Assembly (NCBI GenBank): GCA_903870145.1
Contig: CAIQBO010000036.1
Coordinates: 1-64,000 of the forward strand
Reading direction: 5' to 3'
DNA length: 64,000 nt
Source: an uncultured Burkholderiales bacterium
GTDB lineage: Bacteria; Pseudomonadota; Gammaproteobacteria; Burkholderiales; Burkholderiaceae_C
A model generated the notes under the pieces. It saw only the letters and a program-made list of their open reading frames with translations, was not told where the DNA came from and did no database searches. The translations under genes and the position numbers were made by a program. This document shows positions 8,878 to 25,231 of this stretch, piece by piece (within the stretch, counting starts at the first letter, position 1; each line of letters starts with the position of its first letter).

Positions 8878-10152
8878 ATGATGAACCGTCGTGGCAATCT
8901 CAAAGCATTGGCACTTGCCAGTGCGCTGGCAGCCGGAACTTTGACTTTTTCAATCCAAGCACTTGCAGCTGACACCATCAAGGTGGGCATCTTGCACAGC
9001 TTGTCTGGCACCATGGCCATTTCTGAAACTGTGTTGAAAGACACAGTGCTGATGGCCATTGACGAGATCAACGCCAAGGGCGGCATCTTAGGAAAAAAAT
9101 TAGAACCTGTGGTGGTTGACCCTGCATCGAACTGGCCCTTGTTCGCTGAAAAAACCAAACAGCTGCTGACCCAAGACAAAGTCTCGGTCATCTTCGGTTG
9201 CTGGACTTCGGTCAGCCGTAAATCTGTGCTGCCTGTTGTGGAAGAATTGAATGGCTTGCTGTTTTACCCCGTGCAATACGAAGGTGAAGAGCTGTCGAAA
9301 AATGTGTTCTACACCGGCGCAGCGCCCAATCAACAAGCTATTCCAGCCGTTGACTATTTGATGAGCAAAGACGGCGGCGCTGCCAAGCGCTGGGTCTTGC
9401 TGGGCACTGATTACGTGTACCCCCGCACCACCAACAAAATTTTGCGCGCTTACCTCAAAAGCAAAGGCGTGAAAGATACCGACATTGATGAAAAATACAC
9501 GCCGTTTGGCCACTCCGACTACCAAACCATCGTGGCTGATGTAAAGAAATTCGCTGCTGGAGGCAAGACCGCTGTGGTCTCCACCATCAACGGTGACTCC
9601 AATGTGCCCTTCTACAAAGAATTGGGCAACGCAGGCTTGAAAGCCAAAGATGTGCCCGTAGTGGCTTTCTCTGTGGGCGAGGAAGAGTTGCGTGGTGTCG
9701 ACACCAAGCCTCTGGTGGGACACTTGGCCGCATGGAATTATTTCATGAGCATCAAGAACCCCACCAACGACGAGTTCACCAAAAAGTGGGCAGCCTATGC
9801 CAAGGCTAAAAATATCGCTGGCCACAAAGACAAAGCTTTGACCAATGACCCCATGGAAGCCACTTACATTGGCATCAACATGTGGAAGCAAGCGGTTGAA
9901 AAAGCGAAGTCCACCGATGTGGACAAAGTCATTGCCGCCATGTCAGGTCAAACTTTCAAAGCTCCCAGCGGCATCACATCGAAGATGGATGAGAAAAATC
10001 ACCACTTGCACAAGTCGGTGTTCATTGGCGAGATCAAAGCCGATGGCCAGTTCAACGTGGTTTGGAAAACACCTGGCCCCGTCAAAGCCAAGCCATGGAG
10101 CCCCTATATTCCGGGCAACGACGTCAAGCCTGACGAACCCGCTAAGAAGTAA
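8878..10152 (+). CDS. urtA: Urea ABC transporter, periplasmic binding protein UrtA
   Basis: UrtA captures urea in the periplasm for the high-affinity UrtABCDE importer. The 424-residue protein starts with a signal peptide (about 1-30, ending ALAA). A type I periplasmic-binding fold of the branched-chain amino acid family follows, with the UrtA-typical KVGILHSLSGTMAISE and GCWTSVSRKSVLPVVEELNG. A good ribosome-binding site (GGAG) precedes tandem ATG codons. A sigma-54-type promoter lies upstream, and divergent ureABC shares the regulatory spacer. Confidence 0.97.
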   Translation: MMNRRGNLKALALASALAAGTLTFSIQALAADTIKVGILHSLSGTMAISETVLKDTVLMAIDEINAKGGILGKKLEPVVVDPASNWPLFAEKTKQLLTQDKVSVIFGCWTSVSRKSVLPVVEELNGLLFYPVQYEGEELSKNVFYTGAAPNQQAIPAVDYLMSKDGGAAKRWVLLGTDYVYPRTTNKILRAYLKSKGVKDTDIDEKYTPFGHSDYQTIVADVKKFAAGGKTAVVSTINGDSNVPFYKELGNAGLKAKDVPVVAFSVGEEELRGVDTKPLVGHLAAWNYFMSIKNPTNDEFTKKWAAYAKAKNIAGHKDKALTNDPMEATYIGINMWKQAVEKAKSTDVDKVIAAMSGQTFKAPSGITSKMDEKNHHLHKSVFIGEIKADGQFNVVWKTPGPVKAKPWSPYIPGNDVKPDEPAKK

Positions 10153-10170
10153 TTTGCTTTGAGCAAACCC

Positions 10171-10203
10171 GAGGAAGGGCGCGATGCCCTTCCTCATTTT
10201 CTA
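10171..10203 (+). terminator. Stem-loop between urtA and urtB (attenuator or mRNA stabiliser)
   Basis: GAGGAAGGGC and GCCCTTCCTC form a perfect 10-bp stem around a five-base loop, followed by ATTTTCT. Such partial terminators after a binding-protein gene usually lower expression of the membrane genes relative to the abundant binding protein. Confidence 0.75.
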
Positions 10204-10255
10204 AATAGTTCAAAGCAGACGAGCCTTTTTGAAAGGCCGCTCAAGGAAGCCAGAC

Positions 10256-11866
10256 ATGAATCGATTGCGAGTTTGGCCAGTGGTATTTGCGCTGGTGGTT
10301 TGTTTGGGTTTGAGCTTGATGGCCGTGCCCGCCAAGGCCATGACCTCGGCGCAGATGAGAGGTTTGGTCGATGGTGAAACAGATTCCCGGATCGAAGTGT
10401 TAGGGCGTGTGGTCGCACAAGGCGATGAGCAGACCTTGATTTTTTTGCAGGCTTTGGCCGATGATGCCGTCAAAGTGGCTGGCGATAAAATTTGGATTGT
10501 GCGCGAGAGTTTCGGCGCTGGCAAAGCGCTCGATCCATTGACAGGCAACATGCAAGATTTGCCCGCTGACGCACAAGATGTGGTCAGCAACAACCGATTC
10601 AGAGGTGAAATTGAAACTGCATTGGCAGCTTTGAAGTTGTTCAGCGCGCAAACAACCATGCGCCTTCAAGCTGTTCGTGCCTTGCTCAAAGAGCCTGACT
10701 CAGCCAAAGTTCCTTTGCTGGAAAAAGCTTTGCAGCAAGAGCAAGACACCAGCGTCAAAGCCTTGCTGCAACTGGCCATTTCCGCAGCGCAATTGAGCGA
10801 TGCACAAGCCAGCGTGCGCCTGCATGCCGCACAGACATTGGCGCAAAGCCAAACTCCTGAAACGCAGCTACTACTGAACCAGCGTTTTGCAGAAGAGACT
10901 GACCCTCAAGTCAAGTTGCAATTGCAAAAGTCTTTGAAAACCATTGCAGACGCTTTGAAAACCGGAGAGCGTTTGGGCGCCTTTTTCACCGGCGTGAGTT
11001 TAGGATCTATTTTGTTGCTGGTGGCACTGGGCTTGGCCATTACCTATGGTTTGATGGGCGTGATCAACATGGCGCACGGCGAATTGATGATGATCGGCGC
11101 CTATGCCACCTATGTGGTGCAAGTGCTCTTCAGGCAATATTTGCCAGGCGCATTCGATGCTTACTTGCTGCTGGCGGTGCCCTTGTCATTTTTGGCGTCA
11201 GCCTTGGTCGGGGCCTTGTTAGAGAGAAGTGTTTTGCGCCACCTGTATGGCCGCCCTTTGGAGTCACTGCTGGCCACCTGGGGCATCAGTTTGATTTTGA
11301 TGCAAAGCGTGCGCAGTTTGTTTGGTGCGCAAAACGTGGGCGTTGAAAACCCCTCGTGGATGAGTGGTGGGATTCAAGTGCTGGCCAATTTGTCTTTGCC
11401 CTACAACCGTTTGGTGATCATTGGATTCGCTGCCTTCGTGTTGCTTGCCATGGCCTTGGTGATTGGCAAAACCCGTTTGGGTTTGTTTGTGCGCGGTGTC
11501 ACGCAAAACAGGCCCATGGCTTCGTGCATGGGTGTCAACACTGCGCGCATTGACACGTATGCTTTTTCGCTGGGCTCAGGCATTGCGGGCTTGGCCGGTT
11601 GTGCCTTGAGTCAAGTGGGCAATGTGGGCCCAGACTTGGGCCAAAGCTACATCGTTGACGCCTTCATGGTGGTGGTCTTGGGCGGTGTGGGGCAATTGGC
11701 AGGCACTGTTTACGCGGCCTTGGGTTTGGGCTTGGTCAACAAATTATTAGAAGGCGTGACAGGCGCTGTGCTGGCCAAAATATGTGTGCTGGTGTTCATC
11801 ATCATCTTCATTCAAAAAAGGCCTCAAGGCATTTTTGCAATGAAGGGCCGCAGTGCAGAGGCTTGA
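10256..11866 (+). CDS. urtB: Urea ABC transporter permease UrtB
   Basis: UrtB is one of the two membrane subunits of the urea importer. The 536-residue protein begins with a signal-like segment (about 1-28). It then has a soluble helical region rich in alanine, leucine and glutamine (about 30-235), as seen in UrtB proteins, and a LivH-type permease domain with about eight membrane segments (GLAITYGLMGVINMAHGELM). The start at 10256 is chosen because AAGGA lies just upstream; an in-frame ATG at 10229 lacks this. urtC follows after one base. Confidence 0.95.
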   Translation: MNRLRVWPVVFALVVCLGLSLMAVPAKAMTSAQMRGLVDGETDSRIEVLGRVVAQGDEQTLIFLQALADDAVKVAGDKIWIVRESFGAGKALDPLTGNMQDLPADAQDVVSNNRFRGEIETALAALKLFSAQTTMRLQAVRALLKEPDSAKVPLLEKALQQEQDTSVKALLQLAISAAQLSDAQASVRLHAAQTLAQSQTPETQLLLNQRFAEETDPQVKLQLQKSLKTIADALKTGERLGAFFTGVSLGSILLLVALGLAITYGLMGVINMAHGELMMIGAYATYVVQVLFRQYLPGAFDAYLLLAVPLSFLASALVGALLERSVLRHLYGRPLESLLATWGISLILMQSVRSLFGAQNVGVENPSWMSGGIQVLANLSLPYNRLVIIGFAAFVLLAMALVIGKTRLGLFVRGVTQNRPMASCMGVNTARIDTYAFSLGSGIAGLAGCALSQVGNVGPDLGQSYIVDAFMVVVLGGVGQLAGTVYAALGLGLVNKLLEGVTGAVLAKICVLVFIIIFIQKRPQGIFAMKGRSAEA

Positions 11867-11867
11867 G

Positions 11868-12983
11868 ATGAAAACCAAACCAACATTGTCATTGCCCCAG
11901 CGTGGGCCCTTGTTTTCCCGAGCAAGCGGGTCTGCTTTCGTCTTGGCCTTGCTTGCAGTTTGCATGCTGGTGCCGGTTTTGAACTTGATGGTGCCAGCAG
12001 GCCACGTTCTTCACATGAGTGACTTTGCTGTGGCTTTGGTGGGCAAGATCATGTGCTACGCCATTTGCGCATTGGCCATGGATTTGATTTGGGGTTACAC
12101 CGGAATTTTGTCTCTCGGGCATGGCTTGTTTTTTGCCATTGGTGGTTATGCCATGGGCATGTACCTGATGCGCCAGATAGGTCAAGACGGCAATTACAAA
12201 AGCCACTTGCCAGATTTCATGGTGTTTTTAGATTGGAAAGAATTGCCGTGGCATTGGGCTTTGTCAGACAGTTTTGTGGCCACACTGTGTTTGGTAGTGT
12301 TGGTGCCTGCCGTGGTCTCTGGGGTGTTTGGTTATTTTGCATTTCGCTCCCGCATCAAGGGCGTTTACTTTTCCATCATCACGCAGGCCATGACCTTCGC
12401 GGCCATGCTGTTGTTCTTTCGAAACGAGACAGGTTTTGGCGGCAACAACGGCTTTACCGATTTCAAACGCATTCTGAACATGCCTTTGGCAACGCCGAGC
12501 ATGCGCATGGTTTTATTTGTGCTGACAGGCTTATTCTTATTGGGCTTTTATGCCATGGCACTTGCTTTGGTGAAAAGCAAGTATGGCCGTGTGCTTCAAG
12601 CCATACGCGACGCTGAAACGCGGGTGATGTTCTCGGGCTACTCACCGCTGCCCTACAAGCTGAGCATCTGGGTGATCTCGGCGGTCATGTGTGGTGTGGC
12701 TGGCGCATTGTATGTGCCGCAAGTGGGCATCATCAACCCGGGTGAGATGAGCCCTGCCAACGCCATTGAAATCGCAGTGTGGGCCGCTGTGGGTGGGCGT
12801 GGCAGTTTGATTGGCCCCATCATTGGCGCGTTCTTGGTCAATGGCGCCAAGAGTTGGCTCACGGTCACAGCACCTGAAATTTGGCTGTATTTTTTAGGCG
12901 CTTTGTTCATTGCCGTCACACTGTATTTGCCCCAAGGTGTGGTCGGCTTGATCCAACGCCTGAGACAAGGGGTTGGCAAATGA
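11868..12983 (+). CDS. urtC: Urea ABC transporter permease UrtC
   Basis: UrtC is the LivM-type partner permease of UrtB. The 371-residue protein has about nine hydrophobic segments and the family hallmarks DLIWGYTGILSLGHGLFFAI and VWAAVGGRGSLIGPIIGAFL. The start at 11868 sits one base after the urtB stop and has an AGAGG site. An ATG at 11853 inside urtB is less likely. The stop overlaps the urtD start by four bases. Confidence 0.96.
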   Translation: MKTKPTLSLPQRGPLFSRASGSAFVLALLAVCMLVPVLNLMVPAGHVLHMSDFAVALVGKIMCYAICALAMDLIWGYTGILSLGHGLFFAIGGYAMGMYLMRQIGQDGNYKSHLPDFMVFLDWKELPWHWALSDSFVATLCLVVLVPAVVSGVFGYFAFRSRIKGVYFSIITQAMTFAAMLLFFRNETGFGGNNGFTDFKRILNMPLATPSMRMVLFVLTGLFLLGFYAMALALVKSKYGRVLQAIRDAETRVMFSGYSPLPYKLSIWVISAVMCGVAGALYVPQVGIINPGEMSPANAIEIAVWAAVGGRGSLIGPIIGAFLVNGAKSWLTVTAPEIWLYFLGALFIAVTLYLPQGVVGLIQRLRQGVGK

Positions 12984-13852
12984 CCCCCGAATTATTGGCC
13001 CAGGGTGCGCGCCGAGTCGCCAAGCGCCTAGATGAAAAACCAGCTTCAACCGATTCAGGTGGACGTGATGCGAGCTATGGGCGCATCCACAAGCAAGACG
13101 AACTTGATCTTGCGCACGGTCGTATTTTGTACTTGGAAGATGTCAGCGTGAGCTTTGATGGCTTCAAGGCCATCAACAATCTGTCCTTGGACATTGCACC
13201 AGGTGAATTGCGTTGCATCATTGGTCCCAATGGCGCTGGCAAGACCACCTTGATGGACATCATCACAGGCAAAACACGCCCTGACGCGGGCCGTGTTTTC
13301 TTTGGCAGCACGATCGATTTGCTTCGCCACAATGAACCTGAAATTGCGCAACTGGGCATTGGCCGCAAGTTTCAAAAACCCACCGTGTTTGAAAACCTGA
13401 GTGTGTTTGAGAATTTGGAGCTTGCGCTGAAAACGCCCAAAAGCGTTCGCGCCTCTGTGTTTTTTCGATTGGATTCAGCCCAGTCTGATCGGCTGGCCCA
13501 CGTCCTTGACACCATCCATTTGGCGGACAGCATGCGCACGCAAGCAGGCCAGCTCAGTCACGGTCAGAAGCAGTGGCTTGAAATTGGCATGCTCTTGATG
13601 CAAGACCCCAAACTGCTCTTGCTGGACGAGCCCGTCGCGGGCATGACCGATCTTGAAACCGAGCGCACTGCCGAACTTTTTTTGAGCCTCAAGGGGCAGC
13701 ATTCGTTGATGGTGGTCGAGCACGACATGGGGTTCATCCAAACCATCTCAGACATAGTCACCGTGCTGTGTGATGGCGCAGTCTTGGCACAAGGCACGCT
13801 AGAGCAGGTGCAGTCCGATGAGCGTGTGATTGAAGTTTATTTAGGGCGCTGA
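12980..13852 (+). CDS. urtD: Urea ABC transporter ATP-binding protein UrtD
   Basis: UrtD is the LivG-type ATPase of the urea importer. The 290-residue protein carries an N-terminal extension of about 45 residues, then Walker A GPNGAGKTT, the signature-region LSHGQKQWLEIGMLL and Walker B LLLLDEPVAGM, followed by a switch histidine in VVEHDMGF. The start at 12980 overlaps the urtC stop (ATGA); frames opening further upstream would overlap urtC. It is followed by urtE after one base. Confidence 0.96.
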   Translation: MTPELLAQGARRVAKRLDEKPASTDSGGRDASYGRIHKQDELDLAHGRILYLEDVSVSFDGFKAINNLSLDIAPGELRCIIGPNGAGKTTLMDIITGKTRPDAGRVFFGSTIDLLRHNEPEIAQLGIGRKFQKPTVFENLSVFENLELALKTPKSVRASVFFRLDSAQSDRLAHVLDTIHLADSMRTQAGQLSHGQKQWLEIGMLLMQDPKLLLLDEPVAGMTDLETERTAELFLSLKGQHSLMVVEHDMGFIQTISDIVTVLCDGAVLAQGTLEQVQSDERVIEVYLGR

Positions 13853-13853
13853 A

Positions 13854-14561
13854 ATGGATTTGACTGTTCACAATATTCAGCAGTTCTATGGCGGCTCGCA
13901 CATTTTGCGCAACGTCAGTCTACAGGCCAAGCAAGGCCAGGTCACAGTGCTGCTCGGGCGCAATGGCGTAGGCAAATCCACTTTACTCAAATCACTCATG
14001 GGTGTGGTGCCCATTCGCAGTGGCAGCGTGCATTTGGACGCACACGACTTGAGCACTGCTCCCCCCTACGAGCGTGCGCGTGCCGGCATTGGTTATGTGC
14101 CCCAAGGCCGAGAAATATTTGCCCGCTTGACGGTGCAAGAAAATTTGCAAATGGGTTTGGCCTCCCAAAAAAGGGGTACGCCCATTCCGCCGGAGTTGTT
14201 CGAGTTGTTTCCGGTGCTCCAGCAAATGCTGCACCGCAGAGGTGGCGATTTATCGGGCGGGCAGCAGCAGCAACTGGCCATTGCCCGCGCCTTGGCCGCA
14301 CGCCCTCAAGTGTTGATTTTGGATGAGCCCACGGAAGGCATTCAGCCCAGCATCATCAAAGACATTGGCCGCGTGCTGCGCCGATTGGCCAACCTAGGCA
14401 TGCAAGGCCAACGCATGGCGGTTCTTTTGTGTGAACAGTATTATGATTTTGCGCAAGAGCTGGCCGATGCTTATTGCGTGATGGAGCGTGGCGAGGTGAT
14501 CGCCCACGGGCCAGGCCACGAAATGAAAGCAAAGGGCATCCGCCAGCTGGTGGCGATTTAA
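13854..14561 (+). CDS. urtE: Urea ABC transporter ATP-binding protein UrtE
   Basis: UrtE is the LivF-type second ATPase. The 235-residue protein has Walker A GRNGVGKST, signature LSGGQQQQLAIARAL and Walker B LILDEPTEGIQPS. The UrtE-typical LLCEQYYDFAQELADAYCVM, where an acidic-glutamine pair replaces the usual E-H-D, is present. It ends the urtABCDE operon and converges on ureD with only four bases between stop codons, leaving no room for a dedicated terminator. Confidence 0.96.
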   Translation: MDLTVHNIQQFYGGSHILRNVSLQAKQGQVTVLLGRNGVGKSTLLKSLMGVVPIRSGSVHLDAHDLSTAPPYERARAGIGYVPQGREIFARLTVQENLQMGLASQKRGTPIPPELFELFPVLQQMLHRRGGDLSGGQQQQLAIARALAARPQVLILDEPTEGIQPSIIKDIGRVLRRLANLGMQGQRMAVLLCEQYYDFAQELADAYCVMERGEVIAHGPGHEMKAKGIRQLVAI

Positions 14562-14565
14562 GCAG

Positions 14566-15396
14566 TCAAACATTCCAAATTCGGGGTGGCGTGCCGGGCA
14601 AAGCCCAAAGGGAATGGCGCCACTCAGCCCAGACTTGGCGCAGTAAATCCATCGCAGGCTCGACCAAAGGGGCCACCACGCGCAGCACCAAAACTTGCGG
14701 GTGAGCCAAGCTTGCGCCTGATTGCAGCTTCAAATCATGCGCCTCTAACACCGCACGCGCCACCGCCAAAGCAGGCTCAGTGCGGTCAGCGGCCAAATCA
14801 GAGCCGGCTGCAAATATCAAAGTGGCCATGCACTTGTGCCCTGCCAAACCGATGGGGCTGTTGAGCCAACGTGTGTCATGGCCTTGCAAAGTGGCGCGCT
14901 CTAACCAGGCGCCCGGAATTTCCAAATGCTGTTTGAAATGCCCTTGCTCGAAGGCCAAATCAGAGCTGGGCATGCCCAGCGCCGTGACGTCCCAAGCCAT
15001 CAACTCTGCGCCCGGTGCCAAATGAAACACAGCGCGGTTGGTCGCTTCGCAGCCGTTGTAGGCAATGGCCTCTAGAGGCAGCCATTCAAGTCGAGCGTCT
15101 GCTGCGACGTGCGCTTGAACTTGCTGGACAGCCGCGTGCCCCCCCGATTTGTAAAAACGTGTGGCGCCGGGTGTGCTGACCAAGCCGTGAGCACCAGGCG
15201 CTACGCTGACCTGAATGTCCAGTGTGTCGCCGCCAACCAAACCACCGGGGGGGTGGACCAAAACATTGTGGCAAATGCCGTCGCCTTCGGGGTAGAGGCT
15301 TTGCAGTATGCGCAAAGGCCCACTGTGCAAGTAGCGCGCAACACTGCGGTTTGATTCGCAGGTGTAATCAAGTTTCAGGTCTGCGCGCCACGCCAT
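14566..15396 (-). CDS. ureD: Urease accessory protein UreD, separated from the ure operon
   Basis: UreD (UreH) is the scaffold that recruits UreF-UreG to apo-urease for nickel insertion. The 276-residue protein has LHPPGGLVGGD-type residues (VHPPGGLVGGDTL), TPGATRFYKSGG and MAWDVTALGMP, all typical. It is not with ureABCEFG: it lies beyond urtABCDE on the minus strand, five bases downstream of the potassium-channel gene. It would thus be expressed from the channel-gene promoter or a weak internal one. Its own ribosome-binding site is poor, which hints at coupling to the gene upstream. Confidence 0.95.
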   Translation of the reverse strand: MAWRADLKLDYTCESNRSVARYLHSGPLRILQSLYPEGDGICHNVLVHPPGGLVGGDTLDIQVSVAPGAHGLVSTPGATRFYKSGGHAAVQQVQAHVAADARLEWLPLEAIAYNGCEATNRAVFHLAPGAELMAWDVTALGMPSSDLAFEQGHFKQHLEIPGAWLERATLQGHDTRWLNSPIGLAGHKCMATLIFAAGSDLAADRTEPALAVARAVLEAHDLKLQSGASLAHPQVLVLRVVAPLVEPAMDLLRQVWAEWRHSLWALPGTPPRIWNV

Positions 15397-15401
15397 AAAT
15401 A

Positions 15402-17042
15402 TCAGGCGTCAGCGGGCGGCGCTTCCTGTCGGTTGATCAGCCGCCACATTTTTTTATCTGTGTCTGTCAGCTGATCCTCTTGGTTGGCCAAGGCGTTGAA
15501 TTTTTCGGGGTCGGCCAGCAAACTCAATTGCCTGATCTGACCAATTAAAAATTTGTAGTGCTCAATCGCGTGTTTGGGGTTGCTTGCGATTTTATGCAGC
15601 GGCAAGGTGGAGACATCGTCCATCAACTGTCGCTCTCGTTTGGCGCGTTCAACCAAGCGCCTGACCTCTTCGTCACTCAAGTGCAGTCGTTTGGTCTCCG
15701 CTTGAATGTAGGCGGCTTCTTCTTCATCGATGACGCCATCGGAGAGCATTTCAAACAACTTGTTGACCAAGGTTTCTCGCTCGATGCGCAGTTGATCGCT
15801 GAAGGCCGAGGACAACAAGGCCGCAGGAATGGCAAAAATACCGATGCCCATCAAAGCCAAAATGATGGTCATGATCCGGCCCATGGGCGTGACAGGCGAG
15901 ATGTCGCCATAGCCTACTGAGGCCAGCGTGATCACAGCCCAGTAAATAGACTGCGGAATGTTTTCAAACTTTTCAGGCTGAGCTTCGTGTTCAAACAAAT
16001 AGCCCAAACTGGCAGTCAAAATCACCAACAACAGCATCACGAAACCCGAGGCAGCCATCACAGGCCATTCGCGTTTGAGCACTTTGGCCAATGATGCGGT
16101 AGCGCCTGTGTGGCGCGTGAGTTTAAGCAATCGCATCAGCCGGAACACTCGCAAGAAGCGAAGGTCAAACAAGTGATGCAAAAAGACTTCTAAGAAGAAC
16201 GGAAGAATGGCCAAGAAATCGATCATCGAGGAGGTGGTTTTAGCCTGTTTCAAGCGCCCAGTCAGGGCCTTTTGAAAGCCAGGTTCTTCAACGCAACAGT
16301 AAATCCGCAAACAATATTCGATCGAGAAAATGCCAACTGCTACGGCATCCAAGACTAAAAATTCGACGTTCAGCAAATAGTGGATGCTTTGCACCGACTC
16401 TAAAACCACAGCGATCACAGAGACCACCACCCACACCACAATGAAGCCATCAAATAAATTGTGCAGTGTGCCGCCATACTCGCTGGGGAACACCAGCGCA
16501 TGTATTTTTTGACGGAAAGTGCGGCCCTTGTTGGCCAGAACAAACTCTTTGTAGGCCGGAATCAAGACGCGGAATAATTTCAGTATCCGCAACAACCTCA
16601 GGGACCGCAAAAAGCGCAAATCGATGGCAATGAAGGCTTGCAAGAAGAAGGGGATGATGGCCAGAAAGTCAATGATGGCGAAGGGGCTGCCGACATAGCG
16701 CAGCCTTGGGAGGCTGGATTTTTTGAACTCTTCATCTTCAGGGGCCAAATAAAGTCGAAGTATGTATTCAACAGAAAACACGATCACCGAGATCAAATCA
16801 AAAAAGTGAAACAGGTGTTTATAGGGCTCAAAAATGGCAGGGACTTGCTCAAAAACCAGCGCAAACAAATTGCCAACAATCAAAAAGCCAATCCAGCGGT
16901 CCACCGTTTTTTGGTGGTTGCCTTCGATGTTGGGGTTCAATAACCATGCATACAACCAAGCTCGCATGGGCAGGGTGTGAGAAATATCAGCAGGCCTGGA
17001 TTTGCCCAGCAGCTTGGCTTCGAGTTCGGATGTGCTTTCCAT
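15402..17042 (-). CDS. Potassium channel with two voltage-sensor domains and one pore
   Basis: The 546-residue protein has two tandem voltage-sensor-like units followed by a single pore. The first unit has S1 near 50-67, S2 near 80-99, S3 near 122-138 and S4 with R143, R146, R149, R152, K155 and R158. The second has S1 near 198-217, S2 near 228-248, S3 near 273-289 and S4 with R295, R298, R301, R304, K307 and R310. The pore has S5 near 327-349, a filter SVGYGD at 375-380 and S6 near 387-411. The two units repeat each other closely (IDFLAIIPFF and IDFLAILPFF; FSVEYILRLY and FSIEYCLRIY). A helical, charged cytoplasmic tail (about 415-546) includes DGVIDEEEAAYI. Bacterial Kv channels normally have one sensor per subunit. 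Potassium selectivity is inferred from the filter. Confidence 0.85.
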   Translation of the reverse strand: MESTSELEAKLLGKSRPADISHTLPMRAWLYAWLLNPNIEGNHQKTVDRWIGFLIVGNLFALVFEQVPAIFEPYKHLFHFFDLISVIVFSVEYILRLYLAPEDEEFKKSSLPRLRYVGSPFAIIDFLAIIPFFLQAFIAIDLRFLRSLRLLRILKLFRVLIPAYKEFVLANKGRTFRQKIHALVFPSEYGGTLHNLFDGFIVVWVVVSVIAVVLESVQSIHYLLNVEFLVLDAVAVGIFSIEYCLRIYCCVEEPGFQKALTGRLKQAKTTSSMIDFLAILPFFLEVFLHHLFDLRFLRVFRLMRLLKLTRHTGATASLAKVLKREWPVMAASGFVMLLLVILTASLGYLFEHEAQPEKFENIPQSIYWAVITLASVGYGDISPVTPMGRIMTIILALMGIGIFAIPAALLSSAFSDQLRIERETLVNKLFEMLSDGVIDEEEAAYIQAETKRLHLSDEEVRRLVERAKRERQLMDDVSTLPLHKIASNPKHAIEHYKFLIGQIRQLSLLADPEKFNALANQEDQLTDTDKKMWRLINRQEAPPADA

Positions 17043-17051
17043 GATGCCGCC

Positions 17052-17633
17052 TTAAAATTCGAATTCTTCAATCTTGATGGCATAGCCACCCCGGTCACAA
17101 ACAGTGATGCGCATGGACACGAGCGAGTCTATGGGGTCGTTGTCCACCAATTGTGTGGCCACCATGGGAATAGCCGAGCCTGCAGGTGTGGGAGATAGTT
17201 TTTCTAAAAATATCCCGCCAATGGAGCTGTGGTCTTTGGTGTCGCACTTGGCCACAAACTGGGGCAGCTCACCGGTAAAGGGGTTGCGCAAATCTTTCAT
17301 CGGTGTATCGCCAGTTTGCAGCGCTGCAAAGCACTCGCCCCAGCGCTTGCGCTCCGTGGCGCTGCCAATGCAGGCTTCAATCGGGAAGCCTTCTTTGAAA
17401 CGTGCGGCGCTGTTTTCCTTGAACCACTTGCTCCAAGCCTCGCCATTTTGCTTGGTCACTTCGTTTTTCATGCCCTCTTGGTAGGACAGTTGACCGACCC
17501 AGCCCACACCTAACAAAATGCACAGCAACATCACTAAAAACATGATGTCTGTGGCGGTTGGTAACCCGTTGCTGGGCTTAGCCGGGACCTCTTCTTCGGG
17601 CGAAGTGTGGGTGTCTGAGACGTTTTGACTCAT
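17052..17633 (-). CDS. Hypothetical single-pass membrane protein
   Basis: The 193-residue protein is not recognised. It has a short acidic cytoplasmic-looking N-terminus, one membrane segment (about TATDIMFLVMLLCILLGVGWVG, near 29-50) and a soluble region with several cysteines. The start at 17633 (MSQNVSD) is chosen over 17687, because AGAAAG lies upstream and the extra residues look non-coding. It lies nine bases upstream of the channel gene on the same strand, so it may be an auxiliary subunit or merely a co-transcribed neighbour. Confidence 0.65.
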   Translation of the reverse strand: MSQNVSDTHTSPEEEVPAKPSNGLPTATDIMFLVMLLCILLGVGWVGQLSYQEGMKNEVTKQNGEAWSKWFKENSAARFKEGFPIEACIGSATERKRWGECFAALQTGDTPMKDLRNPFTGELPQFVAKCDTKDHSSIGGIFLEKLSPTPAGSAIPMVATQLVDNDPIDSLVSMRITVCDRGGYAIKIEEFEF

Positions 17634-17693
17634 AAAAGAACTTTCTGGGTTTGAGCACAGGTGCGCATGGCCTACATTTCCAAACAAAGGCCG

Positions 17694-17721
17694 ATATTAG
17701 GCAATTAGCTCAAAAGGTCAA
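17694..17721 (-). promoter_or_regulatory. Candidate sigma-70 promoter of the channel-ureD unit
   Basis: On the minus strand TTGACC (17716-17721) and TAATAT (17694-17699) are 16 bases apart, about 60 bases before the start of the small membrane-protein gene. This is the only promoter-like pair noticed for the three-gene unit ending in ureD. Confidence 0.35.
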
Positions 17722-17748
17722 GCATTTTGCGCTAGTTTGGCTAGCACT

Positions 17749-18516
17749 TTATTCGTTGTTTGTCCCGCGATGGGCCCAAGCAGTGGTGTGTTTTTCAATG
17801 TAACTGAACAATTCGTACATGGCCATGGCCATGGCGCCCACCACGACCAAGCCCGAAAAGGCCAAGCCCATTTGCATGGCGGACCCTGCTGAAATCAGCA
17901 GGTAGCCAATCCCTTCATTGGAGGCTGTCATCTCGGAGACAGTAGTTCCGACAAAAGCCAGAGTGATGGCCACTTTCAATGAGCCGTAAAAGTAGGGCAT
18001 CGAGCGGGGCAGGCCCACTTTGATCAGCACATCCCATCGTTTGGCGCCCAAAACACGCAGCACGTCTTCCAGCTCGGGCTCCAAGGTGGCCAGCCCAGTG
18101 GCAATGTTGACCATGATGGGGAAAAAGCTGATCAAAAAGGCCGTCAAGATGGCCGGGCCAATGCCGATGCCAAACCAGACCACCAAAATAGGCACAAAGG
18201 CCGCTTTGGGCAGCGCATTAAAGGCTGTCATGAGGGGATAGACAGCGGCATATGCCAAGCGCGAACTGCCGATCACAAAGCCCAGCATGACGCCCACCAC
18301 AATGGCAATGCCAAAGCCCACCATGGTGACCCAATACGTGCGCCAAGCGTGTGCGGCAATCACATCGCTGTATTCAATGGTTTGCTGCAAGATGCGCCAA
18401 GGGCTTGGAAAAATAAATTCAGAAACCTGCAAGCCCGAACACAGGGCTTGCCAAATGAGCAGGGTCAGGGCCAATAAAATCCAGGGTGACCAACGTTCTA
18501 GTGTTTTTTTGTTCAC
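17749..18516 (-). CDS. ABC transporter permease (SsuC/TauC/NMT1-associated type)
   Basis: The 255-residue membrane subunit belongs to the family that transports nitrate, taurine, sulfonates or pyrimidine-like compounds. It has about six membrane segments and the coupling-helix EAA-type segment VLRVLGAKRWDVLIKVGLPR. Its start overlaps the ATPase stop by four bases. Together with the ATPase and NMT1-type binding protein upstream it forms one importer at the end of the allantoin-degradation operon. That suggests a purine- or ureide-derived nitrogen substrate, but the sequence cannot tell which. Confidence 0.88.
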   Translation of the reverse strand: MNKKTLERWSPWILLALTLLIWQALCSGLQVSEFIFPSPWRILQQTIEYSDVIAAHAWRTYWVTMVGFGIAIVVGVMLGFVIGSSRLAYAAVYPLMTAFNALPKAAFVPILVVWFGIGIGPAILTAFLISFFPIMVNIATGLATLEPELEDVLRVLGAKRWDVLIKVGLPRSMPYFYGSLKVAITLAFVGTTVSEMTASNEGIGYLLISAGSAMQMGLAFSGLVVVGAMAMAMYELFSYIEKHTTAWAHRGTNNE

Positions 18517-19349
18517 AGGGCACCTGCGGATGAGGGGATGATTGCACCGGTTTGTCGCATGGCACCAATGTGGCCACGCAGTTCGTGCACGATATCGGTG
18601 AATTGCGGCGTGTAGGTGATTTCAAGGTCACGCGGCCTGGGCAAATCAATCTCTCGCTTGAGCACAAAGCGGCCAGGGCTTTTGCTCATGACATAAACCG
18701 TGTCGGCCAAGAACACCGATTCGCGCAAATCGTGTGTGACCAAGATCACATTGAAGTGCTGCTCGGTCCACAGGTCGCGCAAGATGCACCACAACTCTTC
18801 ACGTGTGAAAGCGTCGAGCGCGCCAAAGGGCTCGTCCAGCAAGAGCATTTTGGGCTCGTGAATCAAGGCGCGGCACAGGCTGGCGCGTTGCTGCATGCCC
18901 CCAGAAAGCTGCCACGGAAATTTGTTTTCATAACCGGCCAAGCCTACAGTTTTGAGCAAACGGCACGCGCGCTGGGCGTACTCTTGCTTTTTTTGTTTGA
19001 ACTGAGAGCGAAATGGTTCGACAATTTCCAGCGGCAAGAGCACGTTGTCCAAGGTGGTTCGCCAAGGCAACAGAGACGGTGCTTGAAATGCCATGCCACT
19101 GATTTTCAAAGGCCCCGTGACGGGCTGGCCGTCCACCAAAATTTGACCTTTGCTGGGGCGTTTGAGGCCCGTGGTCAGCTTCATGAAGGTGGACTTGCCG
19201 CAGCCCGAGGGCCCCACGATGGCGATGAATTCACCCTGGCGAACTTGCAGGTTGATGTCTTCGACAGCAAAGTGGTTTTGGGCCAGCAACTCGTCGTTGT
19301 AGGCCAGCCAAACATTTTGGAAATCTACAAAATTTTCAGTGGAAGCCAC
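18513..19349 (-). CDS. ABC transporter ATP-binding protein (SsuB/TauB type)
   Basis: The 278-residue ATPase has Walker A GPSGCGKST, signature LSGGMQQRASLCRAL, Walker B LLLDEPFGALD and a switch-histidine segment VTHDLRESVFLAD. The GMAFQAPSLLPWRT segment (Q-loop) is typical of the nitrate/taurine/NMT1 subfamily. It lies eight bases after the binding-protein gene and overlaps the permease gene by four bases. It powers the same importer. Confidence 0.9.
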   Translation of the reverse strand: MASTENFVDFQNVWLAYNDELLAQNHFAVEDINLQVRQGEFIAIVGPSGCGKSTFMKLTTGLKRPSKGQILVDGQPVTGPLKISGMAFQAPSLLPWRTTLDNVLLPLEIVEPFRSQFKQKKQEYAQRACRLLKTVGLAGYENKFPWQLSGGMQQRASLCRALIHEPKMLLLDEPFGALDAFTREELWCILRDLWTEQHFNVILVTHDLRESVFLADTVYVMSKSPGRFVLKREIDLPRPRDLEITYTPQFTDIVHELRGHIGAMRQTGAIIPSSAGAL

Positions 19350-19357
19350 GCGCAGCC

Positions 19358-20392
19358 TTACTTTTTAGGCCTGGGCAAAATGTCCAATTCTTTGGCGCTG
19401 GGCAAGAACGATCCATTCCAGATTGCTTCAGAGTTCACGCGTGTTTTGGTGCTGAATGCATCAGAGACTTGTGAGGCCATCAAAGTCAGGCGAGGTGCTT
19501 TGATTTGGCCAAAGCCTTCTTCTCGGGCCGATGGGCTGTTGATCACGGTGTCAATGGCCAACTGCAAGCGGCGAGTTTCCAACTCGGTGTTGATGATGCC
19601 GTCGCGGGCTTTGACATCGGCAATGGCTGCTGCGGGGTTGTTGATCACGTCTTTGGCGCCTTTGGTGAAGGCGGCCAGAAAGGCTTTCACAGCAGCGGGG
19701 TTTTCCTTGATGATTTTGGGTGAAGCAATGATGACGTTGCCATACAACTTCACGCCAAAGTCAGGGTATTGCATGACCACCACTTCGTCAGCTTTGACGC
19801 CGCGCGCTTCAATGTTCAACAGGGAGGTGAAGGTGAAGCCGGTGATGGCGTCCACATCGCCGCGCACCAACATGGTTTCACGCAGTGGGGGGTCCATCGC
19901 GGTCCAGGCCACGTTGCCAATGTTGTTGGCTTTTTGGAAGATGGGGAACGCGCGGCGGCCTGCGTCAAACACGGGGGCGCCAAGTTTTTTGCCAGCCAAA
20001 TCGGCAGGTGTTTTAATGCCCGATTTTTTCAGCGCCATGACCGAAGCAGGCGTGTTGTTGTAGACCATCATGATGGCCACAGGCTTGTTCGGTGCATCAG
20101 GGTTGTTGGCGTGGAATTCCATCAAGGCGGCCAAATCGGCAAAGCCCAAGTCGTAAGTGCCAGAGGCCACGCGCGTGACGGCGCCGCCCGAGCCGTTGCC
20201 GGCGTCCACAGTCACGTCCAGCTTGGCGTCTTTGAAGTAGCCCTTGGCCACAGGTGTGAGGAACAGGGCCGCAGGGCCTTCAAAGCGCCAGTCGAGTTGG
20301 AACTTGATGGGCGTGACTTGAGCGCTGAGTTGCCCCATGCTCAGGGCGGTTAAAACGGCTACGCTGGCCTTGAGGAAAAAACGAAGGGTCAT
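19358..20392 (-). CDS. NMT1/THI5-like ABC transporter substrate-binding protein
   Basis: The 344-residue periplasmic protein has a signal peptide (about 1-25, ending LSAQ) and the NMT1/THI5-like pattern IKFQLDWRFEGPAALFLTPV, GYFKDAKLDVTVDAGNGSGG and YDLGFADLAAL. The family binds pyrimidine precursors, nitrate, sulfonates or other small N-compounds. The start at 20392 has GGAG eight bases upstream; the frame is open further, but without such a site. A sigma-54-type promoter (20444-20459) lies just upstream. That supports nitrogen-regulated uptake, plausibly of allantoin, urate or another ureide. Confidence 0.88.
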   Translation of the reverse strand: MTLRFFLKASVAVLTALSMGQLSAQVTPIKFQLDWRFEGPAALFLTPVAKGYFKDAKLDVTVDAGNGSGGAVTRVASGTYDLGFADLAALMEFHANNPDAPNKPVAIMMVYNNTPASVMALKKSGIKTPADLAGKKLGAPVFDAGRRAFPIFQKANNIGNVAWTAMDPPLRETMLVRGDVDAITGFTFTSLLNIEARGVKADEVVVMQYPDFGVKLYGNVIIASPKIIKENPAAVKAFLAAFTKGAKDVINNPAAAIADVKARDGIINTELETRRLQLAIDTVINSPSAREEGFGQIKAPRLTLMASQVSDAFSTKTRVNSEAIWNGSFLPSAKELDILPRPKK

Positions 20393-20443
20393 GAGGGCAT
20401 CTCCAAAGTAGGAATGGTGGTGAAAAGAATTCATGAAGATCAA

Positions 20444-20459
20444 AGCAATAACAATGCCA
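20444..20459 (-). promoter_or_regulatory. Sigma-54-type promoter of the NMT1-type importer
   Basis: On the minus strand TGGCATTGTTATTGCT fits TGGCAY-N5-TTGCW, with GG and GC 10 bases apart. Transcription would start near 20433, about 40 bases before the binding-protein gene. It lies within the 100-base gap after the M20 hydrolase gene. No clear NtrC site was found nearby. Confidence 0.6.
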
Positions 20460-20492
20460 TTATGACCGGCCAAAATGCATGGTTTTCAAACT

Positions 20493-21758
20493 TCAGCTCA
20501 ACAAGTCGAGCAAGCTGCGGGCGATAACCTGCGTGGCTCGGCGCAGGTCTTCTAAATTCAATCGCTCGTCGGCCCGCTTGGCGTGAGATTCTAAAACGGT
20601 GCGAGGCCCGGCGCCATAGATCACGCCGGGTATGCCGTGCTCGCCGTACAAACGCACATCGGTGTACAAAGGCGTGCCCATGGCGGGAATGGCTTGGCCA
20701 AACACATGGCCTGCGTGTTGCTGCAGTGCTGTGACCAAGGGCACGTTGCCGGGCAGGGGCTTCATGGCGTGGGCCATGAGCATGCGCTTGATTTCAATGT
20801 GAGCTTGCGCATCGGCAGGCCGGCCTTGGTTGAAGGTGTCGGTAGCCTGCTGGATCACTTGGCGAATGTTGGCTTCAACTTCGATCGGGTTTTCCTCAGG
20901 AATCATGCGCCGATCGAGCTTGAACATGACGCTGCCTGGCACTACATTGGTGTTGGTGCCGCCCTCAATGAGGCCCACATTCAAGTAGGGGTGGTCAATC
21001 CCTTGAACTCTGGAATGCACCTGCTGGTAGAGCGTGTTTTGTGCGTAAAGCGCATTGAGCACTTGCACTGCGGCTTGCATGGCGTCAACACCCGTGTGCG
21101 GAATCGCAGCGTGCGCCATTTTGCCGTGCACTGTCACTTGCATTTGCAGGCAGCCATTGTGGGCCGTGATCACTTGGTAGCTAAAGCCTGCGGCAATCAT
21201 CAAATCGGGCTTGGTCAAGCCCTTGGCGAGCAACCAGCCTGGGCCATATTCGCCGCCAAATTCTTCGTCGTAAGTGAAGTGCAACTCAACAGCCCCTTTG
21301 AGCGGGGTTTGGAGGGCTTCTAAGGCGCGCACCGCAAAAGTGAAGGTGGAAAAATCACATTTGCTCACGGCAGTGGCGCGGCCATACATGTGGCCATCGT
21401 GAATCTCTGCGCCGTAGGGCGGGTAGGTCCAGCCTTCGCCAGGCGGCACCACATCGCCGTGGGCATTCAAGGCGATGGTTTTGCCGCCTGCACCGTAGGG
21501 CCGGCGAACAATCAAATTGGTCAAGGAGGTCAGGCCATAGTCTTTGACTTGTGCCTCTGGCACGGGGTGCTGCTCAGCTTCAAAACCCATCTCGTGCAAC
21601 AAGGCGGCAGTGCGCAAAGCGTGCGGCGTGTTGTTGCCGGGTGGCGTGTCAGTGGGCACTTTGACCAACTCTTGGAGAAAGCCCACTTGCTCGTCAAAGT
21701 GGGCATTGATCCAAGCGTCAAGTTGGGCGTACAGGGTGGATTTTTCAGTGTGGGTCAT
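20493..21758 (-). CDS. M20-family amidohydrolase (ArgE/DapE type), atypical metal motif
   Basis: The 421-residue protein belongs to the M20 di-zinc hydrolases. It shows the first ligand motif NAHGDVVPPG, the catalytic and ligand glutamates in TYDEEFGGEYG, and a late histidine in LESHAKRADE. The bridging-aspartate motif, usually GRG-x-x-D-x-KG, reads GRATAVSKCDF here, with valine at the usual aspartate position and an aspartate four residues later. It lies three bases downstream of the UraD-AllC gene and just upstream of the importer. It may act on a ureide such as ureidoglycolate or on another N-acyl compound; the substrate cannot be read from the sequence. Confidence 0.8.
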   Translation of the reverse strand: MTHTEKSTLYAQLDAWINAHFDEQVGFLQELVKVPTDTPPGNNTPHALRTAALLHEMGFEAEQHPVPEAQVKDYGLTSLTNLIVRRPYGAGGKTIALNAHGDVVPPGEGWTYPPYGAEIHDGHMYGRATAVSKCDFSTFTFAVRALEALQTPLKGAVELHFTYDEEFGGEYGPGWLLAKGLTKPDLMIAAGFSYQVITAHNGCLQMQVTVHGKMAHAAIPHTGVDAMQAAVQVLNALYAQNTLYQQVHSRVQGIDHPYLNVGLIEGGTNTNVVPGSVMFKLDRRMIPEENPIEVEANIRQVIQQATDTFNQGRPADAQAHIEIKRMLMAHAMKPLPGNVPLVTALQQHAGHVFGQAIPAMGTPLYTDVRLYGEHGIPGVIYGAGPRTVLESHAKRADERLNLEDLRRATQVIARSLLDLLS

Positions 21759-21761
21759 ACA

Positions 21762-23546
21762 TCAAGCTTCTTGCGTCAATTGTTCAAGCAAGTGGGAGAA
21801 GGCCTGCACGCAAAGTTGCATGTCGTCGCAGGTCGTGGATTCAAGAGGGTTGTGGCTGATGCCGCTGTTTTCACCGCGCACAAAGAGCATAGCTTGGGGC
21901 ATGATTTCGTGCAGCTTCATGGCGTCGTGGCCGGCGCCGCTGGGCATCACGAACAAAGGTGCACCCAAGGCTTGCACGGCATTTTCCCAGCGCTGTTGCC
22001 ATGCGCTGGCGCTGGGCGCTGCGGCGGCTCGAAGGGTGGCTTCGCGGTGACACACGAGGCCGCGGCGTTGGCAAATTTCATCGAGTTTTTCTAGCACGTC
22101 GTGCTCCAGCGCATCACGCTGCGCATCATGGGGTGCGCGCACATCGATCGAGAACACACAGCGCCCTGGCACCACATTGATCGAGCCGTTGGGCACACTC
22201 CATTGGCCGATGGTGGCCACAGAGTCGCCGTCTTGCGCGGCGCGTTGTTCCATGAACAGCGCCAACTCGGCCACTGCACAGGCAGCATCACGGCGCCGCC
22301 CCATGGGCGTGGTGCCAGCGTGACTGGCCATGCCCACCATCTCGCACAAATAGCGCACACTGCCGTTGATGGAGCTGACCACGCCCAATGGCAGGTTCAA
22401 CTCGTTGAGCACGGGGCCTTGCTCAATGTGCACTTCCACAAAGCCCAAGTAATCACTGGCTTGGCGTTTGATTTTGTCAATGTCTTGAATGGCCAAGCCC
22501 GCATGCAGCATGGCTTGGCGCATGGTGATGCCTTGGGCATCTTGCTGCTCTAACCAAGCCGGATTGAACTGACCGACCAATGCGCCTGAGCCTAAAAAAG
22601 TGGCTTTGTAGCGCTGGCCTTCTTCTTCCGCAAAGGCCACAACTTCGATGCCAAAGGGCAAGCGCATTTGCGCGCGGGTAAGTTTTTGGACGCAGGCCAT
22701 GGGCGCAAAAATTCCTAGGCGGCCATCATATTTCCCGCCATTGCGCACGGTGTCGTAGTGGCTTCCGGTGAGCAAATACACAGGCGGTTTTCCATCGGCA
22801 TTTTGGCTGGGGTGATAGCGCCCCACCACATTGCCAACAGCGTCAATGTGCACTTCGTCAAAGCCAACTTCGTGCATGGTTTTTTCAATGCTGGCGCTGC
22901 AAGCGCGGTGGGCATCGGTCAGGTAGGTCACGGTCAATTGGCCGGCCTGCGCAAACTCGGGGTCGCTGAATTGGGCCAAGTCTTCTTGCCAGTCCCAGAC
23001 TTGTTGGCCTTGTTCCGGGTGACACCCGGTTTTGTCATTCAAGCGCAGCTCGGCAATGCGGTGAACATGGCGCAAACATTCTTGCAATTCAAATTCGGGG
23101 TGACTGTTCAAACGCCGCTCAAAGGTGGTCAAGATTTGCTGCTTGCTCAAGCCCGTTCCGCGCGGGCCACGCACGGCCAAAATAAAAGGCCAAGTGAATT
23201 TGGCGTTGTAGTCTGCGTTGAGTTGTTGAATGCGAGCAAATTCTTCGGGGCTGCAATCGGTCAAGCCTGCTTTGCTTTGCTCAAGGTGAGATTCTGTGGT
23301 CAATTCTTGGCGCAGCATGGCCTTGCCGGCCAACTCCGGGTGGGCCCGAATCAAAGCCAGTTGTGCGTCTGGGCTCGCGTTCGCCACAACCTGCGCCATG
23401 CAGTGTTTTAGATGCGTCCACGATACAAAGGGGCGATGTTTCAGGGCTTGCTCGGCGATCCAAGGTGAGTGCTCGTACAAGCCCTCTAAGCTTTGCATGG
23501 CCAGGGCGTGCGAGGCGGTATTGAGCTGGTCTAGGTTCAAATTCAT
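21762..23546 (-). CDS. uraD-allC: Bifunctional OHCU decarboxylase - allantoate amidohydrolase fusion
   Basis: Two enzymes of purine breakdown are joined in one 594-residue chain. Residues 1-170 are UraD-like, with the catalytic histidine in RAHPELAG (H69) and FTWPFILAVRG. UraD decarboxylates OHCU to S-allantoin. Residues from about 186 are an M20 allantoate amidohydrolase, with GSHYDTVRNGGKYDG (H263, D274), FAEEEGQRY and a late histidine in GAGHDAMKL. AllC converts allantoate to ureidoglycine, ammonia and CO2. The start at 23546 overlaps the puuE stop (ATGA). The frame is open to 23684, but the extra residues are unlike UraD. The intermediate allantoinase step is done by the neighbour PuuE. 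Confidence 0.92.
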   Translation of the reverse strand: MNLNLDQLNTASHALAMQSLEGLYEHSPWIAEQALKHRPFVSWTHLKHCMAQVVANASPDAQLALIRAHPELAGKAMLRQELTTESHLEQSKAGLTDCSPEEFARIQQLNADYNAKFTWPFILAVRGPRGTGLSKQQILTTFERRLNSHPEFELQECLRHVHRIAELRLNDKTGCHPEQGQQVWDWQEDLAQFSDPEFAQAGQLTVTYLTDAHRACSASIEKTMHEVGFDEVHIDAVGNVVGRYHPSQNADGKPPVYLLTGSHYDTVRNGGKYDGRLGIFAPMACVQKLTRAQMRLPFGIEVVAFAEEEGQRYKATFLGSGALVGQFNPAWLEQQDAQGITMRQAMLHAGLAIQDIDKIKRQASDYLGFVEVHIEQGPVLNELNLPLGVVSSINGSVRYLCEMVGMASHAGTTPMGRRRDAACAVAELALFMEQRAAQDGDSVATIGQWSVPNGSINVVPGRCVFSIDVRAPHDAQRDALEHDVLEKLDEICQRRGLVCHREATLRAAAAPSASAWQQRWENAVQALGAPLFVMPSGAGHDAMKLHEIMPQAMLFVRGENSGISHNPLESTTCDDMQLCVQAFSHLLEQLTQEA

Positions 23547-24499
23547 GGTGTACAGGGGTGGGTCAAAGTCCAGTGCCGTGCCAAGTCCAGGCGGCGGCAA
23601 ATCCAGACATGTTCGTGCGCTTGAATGTGGTCTAAAAAGCGTTGCAAGGCACTGATGCGGCCGGGACGACCGAGCAGTCTGCAATGCATGCCAATGCTCA
23701 TCATTTTGGGTTGGTTCAAGCCTTGCGGATCGCCTTCTGCATACAAGGCATCAAAGCTGTCTTTCAAGTAGTGAAAGAACGGGTCGGCGTGCGAGAAACC
23801 TTGGGGCAAAGCAAAGCGCATGTCGTTGCAGTCCAAGGTGTAAGGCACGATCAATTGGGGGGCGGTGCTGCCATCAGATTTTTGCACGGCCATCCAAAAG
23901 GGCAGGTCGTCGCCGTAGTAGTCGCTGTCGTATGCAAAGCCGCCAAAGTCAGCCACCAGTTGGCGTGTGCGCGGGCTGTCACGCCCGGTGTACCACCCCA
24001 AGGGGCGCTCACCCATCAAGGCTTGCATGATCTGCATGGCCTCTTGCATGTGCGCTTGCTCGGTGGCTTTGTCGATGTTTTGGTAATGAACCCACTTCAA
24101 GCCGTGGCAAGCGATGTCGTGCCCCAATGCTTGGAAGGCGGCAAGCACATCGGAGTTTCTTTGCAGCGCCGTGGCCACGCCAAAAACCGTCAATGGCAGG
24201 GCGCGTTTTTCAAACTCGCGCAGCAAGCGCCAAACCCCTGCGCGCGAGCCGTATTCGTAAATTCCCTCCATGCTGATGTGCCGATCGGGGTAAGCGGCGG
24301 GGTTGAACATTTCCGATAAAAATTGCTCGGAGCCCGCATCGCCATGCAACACCGAGTTTTCACCGCCCTCTTCGTAGTTCAAAACAAATTGCACTGCAAT
24401 GCGCGCTTGACCTGGCCATTGGGCGTGCGGGGGGTGTTTGGCGTAGCCCACCAAATCGCGGGGGTAGGGCGCCGTGCTGTCGTAAATCGATGAGGTCAT
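23543..24499 (-). CDS. puuE: Allantoinase PuuE (polysaccharide-deacetylase fold)
   Basis: PuuE opens allantoin to allantoate with a metal-independent variant of the carbohydrate-esterase-4 fold. The 318-residue protein has PRDLVGYAKHPPHAQWPGQA, then VNYEEGGENSVLHGD-type residues (LNYEEGGENSVLHGD), SMEGIYEYGSRAGVWR and CHGLKWVHYQ, which are diagnostic. It is unrelated to the amidohydrolase-type AllB. It is coupled by ATGA overlaps to gntR upstream and to the UraD-AllC gene downstream. Confidence 0.95.
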   Translation of the reverse strand: MTSSIYDSTAPYPRDLVGYAKHPPHAQWPGQARIAVQFVLNYEEGGENSVLHGDAGSEQFLSEMFNPAAYPDRHISMEGIYEYGSRAGVWRLLREFEKRALPLTVFGVATALQRNSDVLAAFQALGHDIACHGLKWVHYQNIDKATEQAHMQEAMQIMQALMGERPLGWYTGRDSPRTRQLVADFGGFAYDSDYYGDDLPFWMAVQKSDGSTAPQLIVPYTLDCNDMRFALPQGFSHADPFFHYLKDSFDALYAEGDPQGLNQPKMMSIGMHCRLLGRPGRISALQRFLDHIQAHEHVWICRRLDLARHWTLTHPCTP

Positions 24500-25161: not shown

Positions 25162-25189
25162 ACCTTCGCATGATAGCTTTAAAAAGTAA

Positions 25190-25203: not shown

Positions 25204-25231
25204 ACAGTCGACCATTTTGAAAGACAAGACC

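Follow-up and report, generated by a model that had tools for sequence, protein, structure and literature searches.

Voltage-gated potassium (Kv) channels follow a ground plan of one voltage sensor per pore-forming subunit, and in two-pore channels (TPCs) each chain contains two pores, so that the dimeric channel carries four sensors. The gene described here follows neither plan. It lies in a 64,000-nucleotide (nt) stretch of DNA, called the window below, from an uncultured Burkholderiales bacterium (contig CAIQBO010000036.1, assembly GCA_903870145.1), and it encodes one chain with two voltage-sensor domains (VSD1 and VSD2) and a single K+ pore. Directly upstream of it is a gene for a one-helix protein, which we named aux. 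We favour, with moderate confidence, a tetrameric K+ channel in which VSD2 gates the pore, VSD1 supplies a second voltage input in series, and Aux is a dedicated auxiliary subunit.

Two stretches of the channel protein matched PF00520 (Ion_trans; whole-protein E 1.7e-45) and a single stretch matched PF07885 (Ion_trans_2). No other Pfam domain scored above its cut-off, and the C-terminus (residues 416-546) gave sub-threshold TerB/DUF533 matches and nothing stronger. Each VSD has six S4 charges spaced every third residue, R143-R158 and R295-R310, just where a preliminary description of this sequence had placed them. The motif R..R..R..[RK]..[KR]..R, found at residues 143 and 295, was present in none of 20000 shuffles of the protein. 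There is one filter, SVGYGD at 375-380, and one GYGD in the whole sequence. Both proposals of that description, two S4-bearing sensor units in one chain and a single K+ pore with none after the first unit, are thus borne out. In an AlphaFold2 model based on a 55-row alignment (mean predicted local distance difference test (pLDDT) score 82, predicted template modelling score 0.69), the first unit was predicted as four helices: 43-64, 74-101, 119-136 and 141-169 in model numbering, which is protein numbering minus 1 as the first Met is absent from the reference. Four VSD2 helices, an S4-S5 linker, S5, a pore helix and S6 follow in the model. When VSD1 alone was used as a query against the PDB sequences, Kv and voltage-gated sodium (Nav) sensors were found, with 33 sequences at E <= 0.01 and a lowest E of 2.8e-5.

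The layout recurs in 73 of 74 aligned open reading frames (ORFs) that stem from other records, including strain-titled records that are not metagenome-assembled genomes (Limnohabitans sp. Rim11, MMS-10A-178 and Jir61). An assembly, sequencing or gene-call artefact is therefore ruled out. Among 198 listed homologues, which were retrieved by two-sensor queries and are hence no census of architectures, 196 had two VSD units. A search gave 4819 homologues at E <= 0.001; the 120 listed, which include the window's own protein, were 541-550 amino acids (aa) long and 72-99% identical. A pattern scan of 84,980 species genomes yielded 78 loci, of which L105-L110 have one sensor and a few are damaged or truncated. 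The hosts were Limnohabitans strains, many Burkholderiales and Comamonadaceae metagenome bins, and Rhizobiales TNE-4- and Beijerinckiaceae-titled records; some record titles are doubtful, such as that of a bin titled Bordetella parapertussis. Two channel copies are broken, whether truly or by assembly error: L048 (5992-7446) is without much of VSD1 and L070 (5920-7578) is split into two ORFs.

The channel is rare in genomes taken without regard to it. In 398 genomes of the phylum, among the matches listed, both sensors were covered only in the window's genome and in G381; the other listed matches start at residue 137 or later, except for the second stretch of one single-sensor gene. At E <= 1e-60, 399 genomes of the order contained the full channel in four (G000, G591, G381 and G735) and a paralogue without VSD1 in three (G381, G735 and G619).

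For conservation, we aligned 74 two-sensor ORFs, of which five are of type B and one (L065) ends short inside VSD1; broken genes and second copies were excluded. In VSD1, R146, R149, R152, K155, R158 and D125 were invariant in all 74 ORFs, R143 in all 71 rows with a letter at that column, and F89 and E92 in the 73 rows with a letter. In VSD2, the six S4 charges, F239, E242 and D275 were invariant throughout. So was TLASVGYGD, in which S replaces the second T of the Kv-type K+ filter motif TxxTVGYG. The conserved S2 and S3 residues of both sensors are those of the charge-transfer centre. This term is used as in PMC13095418. The median ratio of non-synonymous to synonymous substitution rates (dN/dS) was 0.046 for VSD1, 0.049 for VSD2, 0.010 for the pore and 0.054 for the C-terminus (92 of 118 close pairs; the other 26 were excluded for saturated or tiny dS). 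By these ratios and the invariant charges, therefore, the constraint to remain a sensor is about equally strict on VSD1 and VSD2.

The main rival explanation is that VSD1 is an immobile structural or docking module that anchors Aux or neighbouring subunits and retains its sensor residues for the stability of the fold, with VSD2 as the only sensor. In plant TPC1, only one of the two sensors senses voltage. VSD1 has no pore of its own and is separated from VSD2 by a long linker, and aux accompanies the type-A channels, which have VSD1, and is absent beside three channels without VSD1, all of which would suit a scaffold. However, the six S4 charges and the charge-transfer Phe, Glu and Asp of VSD1 are invariant apart from gaps in 74 ORFs, and some loss of charges would be expected in a pure scaffold, as has happened in the VSD1 of a Gemmobacter channel (below). 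We regard a scaffold as unlikely, but still as the strongest competitor. The movement of VSD1 is the weakest step of our proposal. Far less probable is that VSD1 is itself a permeation path, for example a proton pore of the Hv1 kind joined to a K+ channel. A pore-less S1-S4 unit is indeed the layout of Hv1, but the sequence of VSD1 resembles Kv and Nav sensors and its charge pattern is the same as that of VSD2.

The strongest functional lead is aux, which is absent from the preliminary description. Of the 68 type-A loci that could be decided, 67 have it immediately before the channel gene. The 77 two-sensor ORFs comprise these 67, six of type B without aux, L084 without aux, yet with only 425 nt to the contig end, and three that were undecidable. 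Spacings of 8 nt (24 loci) and 11 nt (13 loci) were the commonest, and the two genes overlapped by 4 nt in seven loci. The flanking genes vary among lineages; the pair stays joined. All 78 aux matches at the loci were beside an intact channel (67), beside broken or cut ones (3) or second copies (8).

Evidence free of any selection of loci for the channel comes from the phylum search, the order search and the single-sensor loci. In the 398 phylum genomes, aux was present in two, the two with the full channel. In the 399 order genomes, six matches passed E 0.001, and the four strong ones (<= 2.1e-18) were in the four full-channel genomes. No aux match was found in the stretches searched at 28 single-sensor loci (L005-L032).

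The Aux protein resembled no described family in our searches. None of the Pfam families matched it at E <= 1; 47 members searched against Pfam gave scattered weak matches, none to KCNE, to the beta or gamma subunits of the BK potassium channel or to Nav beta; and the 92 listed homologues have no Pfam domain and bear the name 'hypothetical protein'. The library copy P0121 is 193 aa long, consistent with a start at M19 (17633). In a model with a mean pLDDT of 83, a long helix (45-92) is followed by a small predicted helix-sheet domain. This domain holds C106, C119, C148 and C197, conserved in 66, 67, 67 and 66 of 67 rows, respectively, and is probably periplasmic. Fold searches of the PDB with the model gave no convincing match, and no PDB sequence match to known one-helix auxiliary subunits was found.

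These observations suggest the following mechanism. By analogy with the Kv fold, four subunits would form one pore, carrying a K+ current, with up to eight sensors; eight per tetramer is plausible. VSD2 is placed where the Kv sensor sits and is joined to S5 by a normal S4-S5 linker, and would gate the pore as in Kv channels. VSD1 would move as a second working voltage sensor that biases VSD2. Because its S4 continues into the linker and the pre-S1 helix of VSD2, VSD1 would reach the pore only through VSD2, a neighbouring subunit or Aux. Conserved residues of the linker include N171, R174, F176, R177 and A182, and of the 18 columns of 161-178, 7 were conserved in at least 95% of the 74 rows. 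Aux would serve the channel as a dedicated auxiliary subunit, in the simplest case by contacting VSD1. It is possible that VSD1 serves as a sensor for another partner, as was suggested in the preliminary description.

Several observations weigh against this proposal. Beyond the invariant charges, each helix of VSD1 has fewer conserved columns than its counterpart in VSD2, for example 4/20 vs 7/22 in S1 and 10/22 vs 12/22 in S4. A distant two-sensor, one-pore channel, annotated as 'ion transporter' on a Gemmobacter aquarius plasmid (NZ_CP028919.1; L132, 3815-5290), lacks, by eye, R1 and K5 in its first S4, where the sixth charge is replaced by His, and R1 and R2 in its second S4. As these S4 segments are depleted, VSD1 need not sense voltage across the wider family. 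No recognisable aux was found among the same-strand upstream frames searched at that locus. The six type-B paralogues, in Limnohabitans-type clusters, have VSD1 and no aux directly upstream. The aux locus counts come from loci mostly picked for the channel and so carry a selection bias. Finally, two weak partial aux matches (1.7e-4 and 2.6e-4) were in order genomes without a channel at E <= 1e-60.

The number of sensors varies among the relatives. In two of the 198 listed homologues, P0262 (751 aa) and P0277 (764 aa; contig of 1.76 Mb), a single TSIGYGD pore is preceded by three VSDs, all with six S4 charges. The first two sensors of these proteins are identical at 91/133 (P0262) and 84/133 (P0277) positions. 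Apart from one match to VSD3 and the pore, 376 genomes of another class in the same phylum held no three-sensor relative at E <= 1e-75. None was found in viral contigs, in a search that covered close relatives only, and two plasmid records matched at E <= 1e-30, with query coverages of 69% and 35%. In the other direction, the VSD1-less paralogues (L111, 1541-2734, minus strand; L122, 3834-5012; L120, 943-2148, minus strand) begin with an N-terminal stretch that resembles the VSD1-VSD2 linker. No VSD1 is encoded upstream of L111. In the tree that bears on whether these paralogues are ancestral or derived, the clade of types A and B had support of 61/51.

We give an even chance to a broader view, of a class of prokaryotic K+ channels whose subunits hold a series of sensors. 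There would be two of them in each subunit, or three in some proteins, and hence eight or twelve for each pore. All of them would be voltage-active, the outer one at least being read out through the dedicated one-helix partner of the same two-gene unit, and the number of sensors would be an evolvable trait.

The origin of VSD1 is a separate question. VSD1 and VSD2 of the window's protein are alike (39/83 identical by BLASTP, E 2e-20; a local score of 204, where none of 1000 shuffles exceeded 56), and the preliminary description took this strong internal similarity to suggest duplication of the sensor module. As stated, this was not supported. In a tree of 89 sensor rows (two from each of 26 proteins and 37 from single-sensor proteins), VSD1 formed a clade (support 100/100) and so did VSD2 (96/85), type B included, and the two clades were not sisters. 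Holding them together as sisters was not rejected in the approximately unbiased (AU) test (p = 0.43). The best BLAST partner of VSD1 was a single-sensor channel VSD in all 26 representatives (91-113 bits, vs 67-96 bits with any VSD2 and 44-88 bits with its own VSD2), although the pools were unequal (best of 36 single-sensor rows vs best of 26 VSD2 rows). On this evidence, the likeness of VSD1 to VSD2 does not exceed the general resemblance among these sensors. Fusion with the sensor of a neighbouring channel competes at least fairly with internal duplication as an explanation; tandem single-sensor genes adjoin the two-sensor channel in 25 of 67 loci. Because the type-B VSD1s lie within the VSD1 clade, the tree fits the presence of VSD1 before types A and B diverged. 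When the three-sensor protein and the Gemmobacter channel, whose VSD1 is a very long branch, were added, the extra sensors fell outside the VSD1 clade, and a forced grouping was not rejected (AU p = 0.22).

The tandem single-sensor genes just mentioned also raise the case of a heteromer, made of the tandem-sensor subunit and other subunits, at least at loci where these genes follow. Adjacent single-sensor channels with conserved odd filters were seen at L098 (7678-9553) and 25 further loci. The filters are TIT[SA]GYGN (26 ORFs) and TI[IV][SA]GWGN (25 ORFs), in the latter of which Trp replaces the filter Tyr. The GYGN gene begins -4 to 113 nt after the channel in 25 of 67 aux-channel loci, and in 17 of 25 pairs the GYGN and GWGN genes share a 4-nt overlap. 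However, the GYGN gene was absent in 39 of the 67 loci, each with at least 700 nt of downstream sequence, the window included (3 were undecidable). At E <= 0.001 the channel is the only Ion_trans gene in the window's genome, so there it must work without GYGN or GWGN subunits. We consider a heteromer improbable.

Some Limnohabitans loci hold further channel genes. The cluster of Limnohabitans sp. Jir61 (L098, 5357-14031) consists of aux, a two-sensor channel, two single-sensor channels, a DUF4337 protein gene, a Kv gene in the opposite orientation, a Nav-type channel with a TLESW filter and, last, another two-sensor channel. The same cluster was found in L059, L060, L066 and L069, and in all five loci there is a 4-nt overlap between the Nav-type gene and the final two-sensor gene. 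A sixth type-B locus, L067, has no Nav-type ORF.

The features of the channel and aux genes are listed in Table 1.

Table 1. Positions in the window of the channel gene, its partner aux and their parts.
Feature	Position	Strand	Basis and remarks
Tandem-sensor K+ channel gene	15402..17042	-	ORF, ATG start, 546 aa; Pfam, homologues
VSD1, S1-S4, residues 49-160	16563..16898	-	One of two Ion_trans stretches; model helices; conserved charges
VSD1 S4 (D141-R158): R143, R146, R149, R152, K155, R158	16569..16622	-	Alignment, motif
VSD1-VSD2 linker and VSD2 pre-S1 helix (161-194), conserved N..RTFRQK..AL	16461..16562	-	Alignment
VSD2, S1-S4, residues 195-312	16107..16460	-	Pfam, alignment, fold match
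VSD2 S4 (D293-R310): R295, R298, R301, R304, K307, R310	16113..16166	-	Alignment, motif
Pore module S5-P-S6, residues 329-415	15798..16058	-	PF07885, Kv4.2 fold match
Selectivity filter SVGYGD (375-380)	15903..15920	-	Invariant in 74/74
Helical C-terminus (416-546), presumed cytoplasmic	15405..15797	-	Model helices
aux (our name)	17052..17687	-	211 aa called from TTG; directly upstream of channel
aux single transmembrane helix, residues 47-66	17490..17549	-	Hydropathy, alignment
aux-channel spacer, 9 nt	17043..17051	-	Sequence; AAGGCGG near channel start, begins in aux stop codon

In the window (8878-27180), the pair lies between genes for a urea ATP-binding cassette transporter and UreD and a purine-breakdown cluster (PuuE, XdhA). 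The neighbours include UreD, UrtA, UrtD, the allantoinase PuuE and XdhA; an allantoate amidohydrolase-like fusion scored below most of its cut-offs. A role in ammonium or K+ balance is only a guess, because the aux-channel pair occurs elsewhere in other surroundings. A promoter scan gave 3 sites vs 3.1 expected, and terminator-like sites numbered 17 vs 9.5 expected. The source bacterium of the window is a relative of freshwater species.

Searches of full-text literature without most subscription journals and preprints, directed at tandem sensors, at Limnohabitans channels and at prokaryotic auxiliary subunits, listed no paper that, by its title or the opening of its abstract, deals with channels of two sensors and one pore per chain, and no paper joining prokaryotic voltage-gated potassium channel, auxiliary subunit and operon. 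Annotations such as 'ion transporter' would conceal two-sensor channels from a literature search. The aux partner, the three-sensor relatives, the VSD1-less paralogues and the extra Limnohabitans channel genes are new beyond the preliminary description. Tandem-sensor channels would test how voltage sensors add up: a second, fully charged, pore-less sensor, with natural one- and three-sensor relatives, would allow a direct test of the effect of sensor number on gating charge, steepness and cooperativity. They would also provide a simple bacterial system in which a channel has a candidate auxiliary subunit dedicated to it, and the Nav-type gene beside the same genes in some Limnohabitans makes bacterial excitability testable there.

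Among known systems, Aux is like KCNE, Nav beta and BK gamma in having one membrane helix beside a voltage-gated channel, a likeness of plan only. KCNE and a BK one-helix auxiliary subunit are covered in PMC13095418. Aux differs from KCNE, BK beta/gamma and Nav beta in having no sequence-family match. VSD1 is like the VSDs of Hv1 and voltage-sensing phosphatases in that no pore directly follows it; unlike them, it has a Kv-type S4 and forms part of a Kv subunit. With a K+ pore in its chain, the protein is not an Hv1 channel. Nor is it a bacterial NavBac channel, as these have a TLESW-type filter and it has SVGYGD. TPCs share the two sensors per chain but have two pores per chain where this protein has one, which places it outside that class. 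For TPCs as a comparison system, see PMC4879148.

The single-sensor bacterial relatives L005, L020 and L023 have the same plan of VSD, pore and short C-terminus, with 34-37% identity over VSD2 and the pore; they differ in having one sensor and the filters TTVGYGD or TTLGYGD, vs ASVGYGD in the tandem channel. With the Kv class, the tandem channel shares S1-S4 followed by S5-P-S6, a variant of the K+ filter and, in both sensors, the S4 charges and the S2/S3 charge-transfer residues. It departs from the class in having two VSDs instead of one per pore-forming subunit. Compared with the human Kv4.2 and KCNQ4 channels (PDB 7f0j and 7byl), it adds a second complete VSD before S1.
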